This document shows, in pieces, positions 4,948 through 6,951 of a stretch of DNA of 64,000 bases. Position 1 is the stretch's first letter, and the number at the start of each line of letters is the position of its first letter. Below the pieces are notes generated by a model that did not search any database, was not told the origin of the DNA, and worked only from the letters and a program-made list of their open reading frames with translations. The position numbers and the translations under genes are program-made. Origin of the DNA: an uncultured Candidatus Actinomarinales bacterium (GTDB lineage Bacteria > Actinomycetota > Acidimicrobiia > Actinomarinales > Actinomarinaceae); NCBI GenBank assembly GCA_943840565.1, contig CALSUY010000001.1, positions 62,001-126,000 of the forward strand, in the 5' to 3' direction.

Positions 4948-5532
4948 ATGAATAACGTAACAAAAATTAATAACTTTAATGAAGACACGTCTAATTCAGA
5001 GCTGGTACAAAAATCCCAAGCAGGGGACAAAGTTGCTTTTGAAATGTTGGTACATCGACACCAAGATTTAGTATTTTCTTTGGCATTCAAACTTACTGGA
5101 AACAAAGAGCTTGCTAATGATGTAGGGCAAGAAGCTTTCATAAGGGCATGGAAAGCAATTGATAAATTTAGAGGTGATTCAACATTCAGCACATGGATAT
5201 ACAGGATCACTGTAAATACAGCTTGGACGTTAAGAAAAAAAGCTAAAAAGCATTATTCACTAAATATCGAAGATACTCAAGAACCCATAGTCATTGATGA
5301 AAAAAATGATCCGGAGTTAATCGCAATAAATTCAGATTTATCTTCAGTACTAAGAAAAGCGTTAGACCAAATTCCATTAGAACAAAGAATTATTGTTGAG
5401 TTGAAAAATATAGAAGGTAGATCACATAAAGAAATAGCAGAGTATTTAGACATAAGTGTGACTGCAGCAAAAGTAAGACTTCATAGAGCTCATCAAAAAC
5501 TAAGAACTATTTTGGAGGATGTAGAGGCATGA
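4948..5532 (+). CDS. ECF-family RNA polymerase sigma factor
   Basis: 194 residues. Region 2 (about 18-90) contains the core-binding VHRHQDLVFSLAFKLTGN and the DNA-melting segment ending in STFSTWIYRITVNTAW. Region 4 (about 130-185) has the helix-turn-helix SHKEIAEYLDISVTAAKVRL. There is no region 1.1 or 3, as expected for an ECF (sigma-70 group 4) factor. Its TGA overlaps the ATG of the next gene, which looks like a zinc anti-sigma factor, so the two probably form a signal-responsive pair. The regulon and stimulus cannot be read from the sequence. Confidence 0.88.
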   Translation: MNNVTKINNFNEDTSNSELVQKSQAGDKVAFEMLVHRHQDLVFSLAFKLTGNKELANDVGQEAFIRAWKAIDKFRGDSTFSTWIYRITVNTAWTLRKKAKKHYSLNIEDTQEPIVIDEKNDPELIAINSDLSSVLRKALDQIPLEQRIIVELKNIEGRSHKEIAEYLDISVTAAKVRLHRAHQKLRTILEDVEA

Positions 5533-5900
5533 AAGAAATTTTAAAAAACCTAAAGTACCAAGCTGTGTGCAGAAGGAAAAGAAATCAAATGATAAAAACC
5601 TATCTCAATGGAGTTTATTTTCAGTTTGATTCTGATAACCATGTCCAATACTGCTTAAAATGTCAGACAGCAGGCAAGAGATATAGAGCTTTTAGAGAGG
5701 AACTTGAAAATGAAGTACAAGTTGATATTGAAGCCCCAGAGGACTTCACATCACGGGTCATGTCTTCTTTAGATAAAAAAGTAAAAACTACTACTAATAA
5801 AGGTACAAAAATAATATTATTGACACTACTTGGATTAATGTCTTTAGTAATATTGGTCTTTGGGTTAAAGCGCTCATCTAATGAGTTAGACAAAGAGTAA
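5529..5900 (+). CDS. putative ZAS-type anti-sigma factor
   Basis: 123 residues. HVQYCLKC at 38-45 is an HxxxCxxC pattern, the signature of zinc-associated anti-sigma factors, with C14 a possible fourth ligand. A single hydrophobic helix at about 94-113 is followed by a short charged tail, placing the zinc domain in the cytoplasm. ZAS proteins bind and inhibit the sigma factor encoded with them; some respond to thiol oxidation. It overlaps the sigma gene by 4 bp (ATGA). Similarity to a named family is only at motif level. tRNA-Trp begins 4 bp after its stop. Confidence 0.65.
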   Translation: MKEILKNLKYQAVCRRKRNQMIKTYLNGVYFQFDSDNHVQYCLKCQTAGKRYRAFREELENEVQVDIEAPEDFTSRVMSSLDKKVKTTTNKGTKIILLTLLGLMSLVILVFGLKRSSNELDKE

Positions 5901-5904
5901 ACTT

Positions 5905-5978
5905 AGGGGTGTAGCTCTAATTGGCAGAGCGCGGGTCTCCAAAACCTGAGGTTGTGAGTTCGAGTCTCACCGCCCCTG
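5905..5978 (+). tRNA. tRNA-Trp (CCA)
   Basis: Acceptor AGGGGTG pairs with CGCCCCT (one wobble), discriminator G. Anticodon CCA sits in the loop CTCCAAA, and the T arm is GTTCGAGTCTC. It is an intact tRNA. Its last base is immediately followed by the middle of nusG, whereas secE normally follows tRNA-Trp, so the 3' flank appears to be deleted. Confidence 0.93.
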
Positions 5979-6352
5979 TAGAGAAGAAGACATTTCCAGG
6001 ATATGTATTAGTAAGAATGGACTTAGATGACACTACATGGTACGAAATTCGTAATACACCATCGATTATAGGTTTTGTTGGATCCGGCAAGTTACCAGTT
6101 TCATTATCTAGACGAGAAATTGAAAGAATTCTAGGATCTAATGAAGAAGTTGAAGTTAAAAAAGAGTCACCAAAATTCAAACCAGATTTTGAAGTTGCAG
6201 AAACTGTGAGAGTTACAACAGGACCTTTTGCTGACTTTAATGGAATAATTGAAGAAATTAACTTAGATCAATCAAAAGTTACAGTATTAGTTAACATATT
6301 TGGACGTGAAACTCCCGTTGAACTGGGTTTCACAGATATTGTTAAGAATTAA
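5978..6352 (+). pseudogene. nusG: NusG, 5'-truncated remnant
   Basis: Transcription elongation factor NusG, lacking its start and roughly the first 60 residues. The visible frame starts right at the tRNA-Trp 3' end with VEKKTFPGYVLVRMDL, which aligns near residue 60 of the usual 180-residue protein. It continues through the rest of the NGN domain (RNTPSIIGFVG) and an intact KOW domain (VRVTTGPFADFNGIIEEI). No start codon with a ribosome-binding site exists upstream; a frame from 5921 would have to be translated through the tRNA. secE, normally between tRNA-Trp and nusG, is absent. NusG is generally essential, so misassembly or a chimera is at least as likely as a true deletion. Confidence 0.85.
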
Positions 6353-6362
6353 GGGATAAAAA

Positions 6363-6524
6363 ATGGCTAAAGAAGTAAAAGCGAAATTAAAACTACAAAT
6401 TCCTGGAGGGGGAGCTACACCAGCACCACCTGTTGGTTCAGCATTGGGACAATATGGAGTAAACATTATGGACTTTGTCCAAGCTTTTAATAATGATACT
6501 TCAAGTAGACAAGGTGAAACCTGA
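6363..6524 (+). pseudogene. rplK: Ribosomal protein L11, 3'-truncated remnant
   Basis: The first 50 or so residues are a normal L11 N-terminal domain: [23 protein letters not shown] followed by [12 protein letters not shown], with a ribosome-binding site (AAGGG) upstream. After SSRQGET the frame stops at 6524, giving 53 residues instead of about 142. The C-terminal rRNA-binding domain is missing, and the sequence continues directly into the middle of rplA in another frame. L11 is part of the GTPase-associated centre. See the rplA remnant for the junction. Confidence 0.88.
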
Positions 6525-6951
6525 GAATGCTGGTGCAGATATTGTAGGAGGTAAAGAGTTAGCTACAAAGGTTGCCTCAGAAGAAAAACTTGATGTAGAT
6601 CTAGTTATTTCAACACCAGAAATGATGGCTGACGTTGGACAACTTGGAAAAATCTTAGGTCCTAAGGGCCTAATGCCGAATCCTAAAACAGGAACTGTAA
6701 CTCCAAATGTTGCAAAAGCCGTTGAAGATTTTAAAAAAGGAAAAGTCGAAATTAAAAATGACAAACTGGGGAATGTTCATCTATCTATCGGAAAAGTATC
6801 TTTTACTGCAGAAGATTTAAAATCAAATCTCGAAGAAGTTATTGCTGTAATTACCAGAGCTAAACCTGCCTCCTCAAAGGGAGAGTACATTAAGTCAATG
6901 CATATATCCTCTACAATGGGGCCGTCAGTTAGCGTAGATATTAATCTATAA
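6508..6951 (+). pseudogene. rplA: Ribosomal protein L1, 5'-truncated remnant
   Basis: From [15 protein letters not shown] at 6508 the frame follows L1 from about residue 78 onward: ISTPEMMADVGQLGKILGP, GLMPNPKTGTVTPNVAKAV and the C-terminal STMGPSVSVDINL. The first ~78 residues, start codon and rplK-rplA spacer are gone. The rplK and rplA frames meet around 6501-6521, where 14 bases (6508-6521) can be read plausibly in both genes, suggesting joining at a short homology. An in-frame TTG at 6475 lies inside rplK and is unlikely to be used. Confidence 0.87.

Follow-up and report, generated by a model that had tools for sequence, protein, structure and literature searches.

A missing secE and a cut nusG in a Candidatus Actinomarina assembly as a likely artefact of chimeric assembly

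Why should a tRNA-Trp gene run straight into the middle of nusG, with no secE between the two, in an assembly (GCA_943840565.1) of an uncultured Candidatus Actinomarina bacterium? An earlier note on this DNA had offered two answers, namely a chimera formed during assembly or amplification, or a real deletion accompanied by relocation of secE and nusG. Here, we compared the window (that is, the whole 64-kb stretch of contig C1 that was analysed) with the rest of the assembly, which comprises 640,326 bases in four contigs and is 70.6% complete with an estimated contamination of 2.85%, as well as with public genomes of the same genus. Two of these genomes, the MAG bin97s and the single-cell genome AG-313-L19, both Candidatus Actinomarina, were found by searching public genomes with the NusG remnant of the window (100% identical protein); at the DNA level their identity to the window is 97-99.5%, and they are referred to as conspecifics below.

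As the earlier note had read it, the G at position 5978 serves both as the discriminator base of tRNA-Trp and as the start of the NusG frame, whose first codon is GTA (Table 1). This frame covers the C-terminal 124 residues of NusG, starting at residue 81 of the 204 residues of the conspecific protein; all 124 are identical to both conspecific proteins, and the frame has neither a start codon nor a ribosome-binding site of its own. The order tRNA-Trp, secE, nusG, which had been assumed to be the usual one, is indeed complete in both conspecifics and continues there into rplK and rplA, with a 25.7-kb contig of AG-313-L19 carrying the intact operon at this very place. Alignment to both genomes refines the loss at the junction from the roughly 0.5 kb estimated previously to 562 bp, corresponding to all of secE (100 aa) and codons 1-80 of nusG, and shows 2 bp (TG) to be common to both sides of the join. 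The lack of SecE, originally noted for the window, extends to all four contigs based on the Pfam profile PF00584 and on tblastn with the conspecific SecE; with the same profile, 24 of the 28 genomes of the genus that were searched yield a SecE. Similarly, the sole NusG (PF02357) match in the assembly is the remnant in the window, so that the full assembly holds neither the secE nor the complete nusG that would be expected had they simply moved elsewhere within it.

A second seam, which the earlier note had overlooked, sits 542 bp downstream of the first one. The rplK frame starts normally at 6363 and, after 53 codons, enters the middle of rplA, giving a fusion that spans 6363-6951. The join is blunt (0 bp shared), and the sequence lost relative to AG-313-L19 comprises rplK codons 54-141, the spacer, and rplA codons 1-86. 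Searches with profiles, tblastn and blastn recovered none of the missing parts (SecE, the NusG N-terminus, the L11 C-terminus and the L1 N-terminus) from any of the four contigs. The window as a whole is collinear with five congeners except exactly at the two seams, where these congeners retain both missing stretches. That is, compared to the standard bacterial cluster (tRNA-Trp-secE-nusG-rplK-rplA-rplJ-rplL-rpoB-rpoC), the window shows the same order and all the same flanking genes, the sole difference being the two stretches missing at the seams. A long direct repeat as the cause of these joins was rejected since the two sides have no more than 2 and 0 bp in common, and a longer rplK/rplA homology suspected by eye failed against the conspecific sequences.

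Table 1. Features of the tRNA-Trp to rplA region (window coordinates) and further seams elsewhere in contig C1 (C1 coordinates)
Feature	Position	Strand	Size or extent	Evidence
tRNA-Trp, anticodon CCA, intact	5905-5978	+		Rfam RF00005, 59.1 bits; ARAGORN gives 5904-5979
Seam 1	5978/5979		562 bp absent	Alignment to MAG bin97s and AG-313-L19
nusG remnant	5978-6352	+	residues 81-204	TIGR00922 positions 52-171 of 172
Island between seams	5979-6520	+	542 bp	Gapless alignment to conspecifics, 97.8% and 98.9%
rplK (L11) 5' remnant	6363-6520	+	residues 1-53 of 141	TIGR01632 positions 1-47 of 140; conspecific gene of 141 aa
Seam 2	6520/6521		570 bp absent	Conspecific alignment
rplA (L1) 3' remnant	6521-6951	+	residues 87-228	TIGR01169 positions 87-225 of 227; conspecific gene
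Further seam	C1:226,370		923 bp lost, blunt	Comparison with AG-313-L19
Further seam	C1:231,248		739 bp lost, blunt	Comparison with AG-313-L19
Further seam	C1:334,208		2349 bp lost, blunt	Comparison with AG-313-L19
Further seam, tandem duplication	C1:241,752 (copies 240,284-243,224)		1469 bp	Comparison with AG-313-L19

Two further observations concern the surroundings of the locus. In one congener contig, UBA1281, both the stretch from tRNA-Trp to nusG and that from rplK to rplA are longer than in the other congeners, by about 300 bp. In addition, positions 4948-5900 of the window, between rpmG and tRNA-Trp, encode an ECF sigma factor and, after it, a 123-aa protein that has a single membrane-spanning stretch, lacks an NCBIfam match and is possibly an anti-sigma factor; this pair is collinear in the congeners.

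The cut genes themselves bear no trace of decay. Relative to the two conspecifics, the nusG remnant shows 9 and 5 synonymous codon differences and the rplK remnant 2 and 1, with 0 nonsynonymous differences in either gene, which indicates that these two remnants derive from genes under normal constraint. For the rplA remnant, 11 synonymous and 3 nonsynonymous differences were counted against bin97s, and 2 and 0, respectively, against AG-313-L19. No relaxed constraint, as in decaying pseudogenes, was seen in this codon comparison of nusG, rplK and rplA.

The two seams, which lie at C1:67,978 and C1:68,520 in contig coordinates, are not the only ones. A scan of the whole assembly against nearly all of AG-313-L19 revealed four more beyond the window (Table 1), all in the part of C1 that is conspecific with AG-313-L19 (positions 1-371,894). 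The genes cut there include a sugar epimerase/reductase set, an asparagine synthase and flippase pair, and a stretch running from a lipid-kinase-like to a rhomboid-like gene, while the 1.47-kb duplication lies inside a phosphoenolpyruvate carboxylase-like gene (ppc); these names come from reading the translations rather than from profile searches. Another congener, G011, matches AG-313-L19 at the further seams, and hence the changes are peculiar to the GCA_943840565.1 assembly. The numbers of bases shared across the six seams are 2, 0, 0, 0, 3 and 0, and such sharing of 0-3 bp fits random end-to-end joins. An apparent 0.5-kb shortfall relative to congeners at C1:154.4 kb is not a seam; AG-313-L19 is continuous there.

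The assembly is also a mixture of closely related strains. The two copies of the ppc duplication are only 99.05% identical to each other, and contig C4 repeats C1:325,253-334,212 at 99.55% identity; together, these values imply at least two strains in the assembly. The sequence missing from C1 at 334,208 is present in C4, which runs on across it. Further, at informative sites, defined as positions where bin97s and AG-313-L19 differ, the window carries the bin97s vs. AG-313-L19 allele in a ratio of 82:17 left of 5978, 5:11 in the island between the seams, and 12:66 right of 6520 (left vs. right, Fisher p about 4e-20). Taken alone, such a switch of strain alleles could reflect natural recombination between strains; the switch coincides with the seams. 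Elsewhere in the contig, an 8-kb patch (C1:345,000-353,000) shows 80-90% identity to AG-313-L19 between flanks of about 99%, and may represent either another mosaic join or natural recombination.

Beyond strains, the contig changes species. Positions 1-371,894 of C1 are mostly 94-100% identical to AG-313-L19; at C1:371,894 the identity drops abruptly from about 99.7% to about 60%, and from there to the contig end at 585,093 it ranges between 57% and 82%. Up to 371,894, contig C2 matches C1 exactly; beyond that point it carries on with AG-313-L19 sequence. A 2-kb probe taken at C1:490 kb has its best congener match at 80%, and a probe from C1:90-92 kb matches one congener at 99% over 377 bp and another at 94% over its whole length. 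The identity drop, the continuation in C2 and the probe matches together lead us to conclude, on these alignments, that C1 is evidently a join of two Actinomarina species, the true continuation being carried by C2.

Based on these sequence comparisons, the missing secE and the cut nusG are almost certainly an artefact of a composite, chimeric assembly; there is no real biological feature, relocation, essential-gene loss or novelty at this locus. The source pieces would have been contigs of several strains of one species plus those of a second species, arranged according to the conserved gene order and then connected at their ends. Wherever neighbouring contigs fell short of each other, the intervening sequence (562, 570, 923, 739 and 2349 bp) would have been dropped without an N run (there is no N in any contig), and where they overlapped both alleles would have been retained, as in the ppc tandem duplication. 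The 542-bp island was most likely a short contig of its own, set between two larger neighbours. Most likely, contig ends were butted together without gap sequence; we infer both the joining and the software or manual step responsible for it. One point against a chimeric assembly is that two near-equal losses (562 and 570 bp) so close to each other have to be regarded as a coincidence. With respect to the two answers considered originally, the chimeric-assembly one is borne out by the longer, intact conspecific sequences, the additional seams, the switch in strain alleles and the change of species at C1:371,894.

Alternatively, whole-genome amplification (MDA) of a single cell might have made chimeric molecules with internal deletions, which were then assembled as such, and deletions of a few hundred bases are a known feature of MDA chimeras. 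Nonetheless, we consider this scenario very unlikely, since one cell cannot yield tandem copies 1% apart, a 9-kb second contig at 99.55% identity, or a contig that switches species. Moreover, the joins in MDA chimeras typically have several bases of homology, whereas the sharing observed across our seams is close to random. Metagenome assemblers can also merge sequences at shared k-mers, and a collapse at repeated k-mers in de Bruijn graph assembly would then underlie the seams; however, the 0-3 bp shared are far below any assembly k-mer, and the process could explain, at best, the change of species at C1:371,894, a homologous coding position. A collapse of this kind is, in our assessment, exceedingly improbable.

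It is also conceivable that the strain underwent a true deletion, with secE and intact nusG, rplK and rplA having moved to the unsequenced ~30% of the genome. The missing pieces are nowhere in the 640-kb assembly, which weakens the relocation proposed in the earlier note, but because the assembly is 70.6% complete, their absence from it is not proof of absence from the cell and is not decisive on its own. A true deletion would, however, require that about half a kilobase was lost on two independent occasions within 1.1 kb, that four core genes were hit, and that all four were relocated. It would also have to be reconciled with remnants free of decay, with a gene order conserved in the congeners and both conspecifics, and with other seams in the same contig that cut unrelated genes. 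The 25.7-kb AG-313-L19 contig, in which the operon is intact at this position, already speaks against it. We regard it as the least probable of the explanations considered, with next to no chance of being correct.

Chimeric assembly, the explanation we favor, has a counterpart in this genus: a published review of the order describes the first 'Ca. Actinomarina minuta' genome as a composite built from metagenomic fosmids and 'admittedly chimeric' (PMC7771536). Like that genome, the present assembly belongs to the same genus, is small in total size, includes several strains, and is chimeric; this is a likeness of kind and does not imply that the two are the same record. The significance of our results is in data quality only. 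That is, this species-level reference, which has few contigs, an estimated contamination of 2.85% and no N, combines several strains and two species into one chimera in which genes are interrupted at the seams. Calls of gene absence (for SecE, NusG, L11 and L1), estimates of genome size and the assignment to a species are unreliable when drawn from this assembly. The living cells themselves would carry an intact tRNA-Trp-secE-nusG-rplK-rplA operon.
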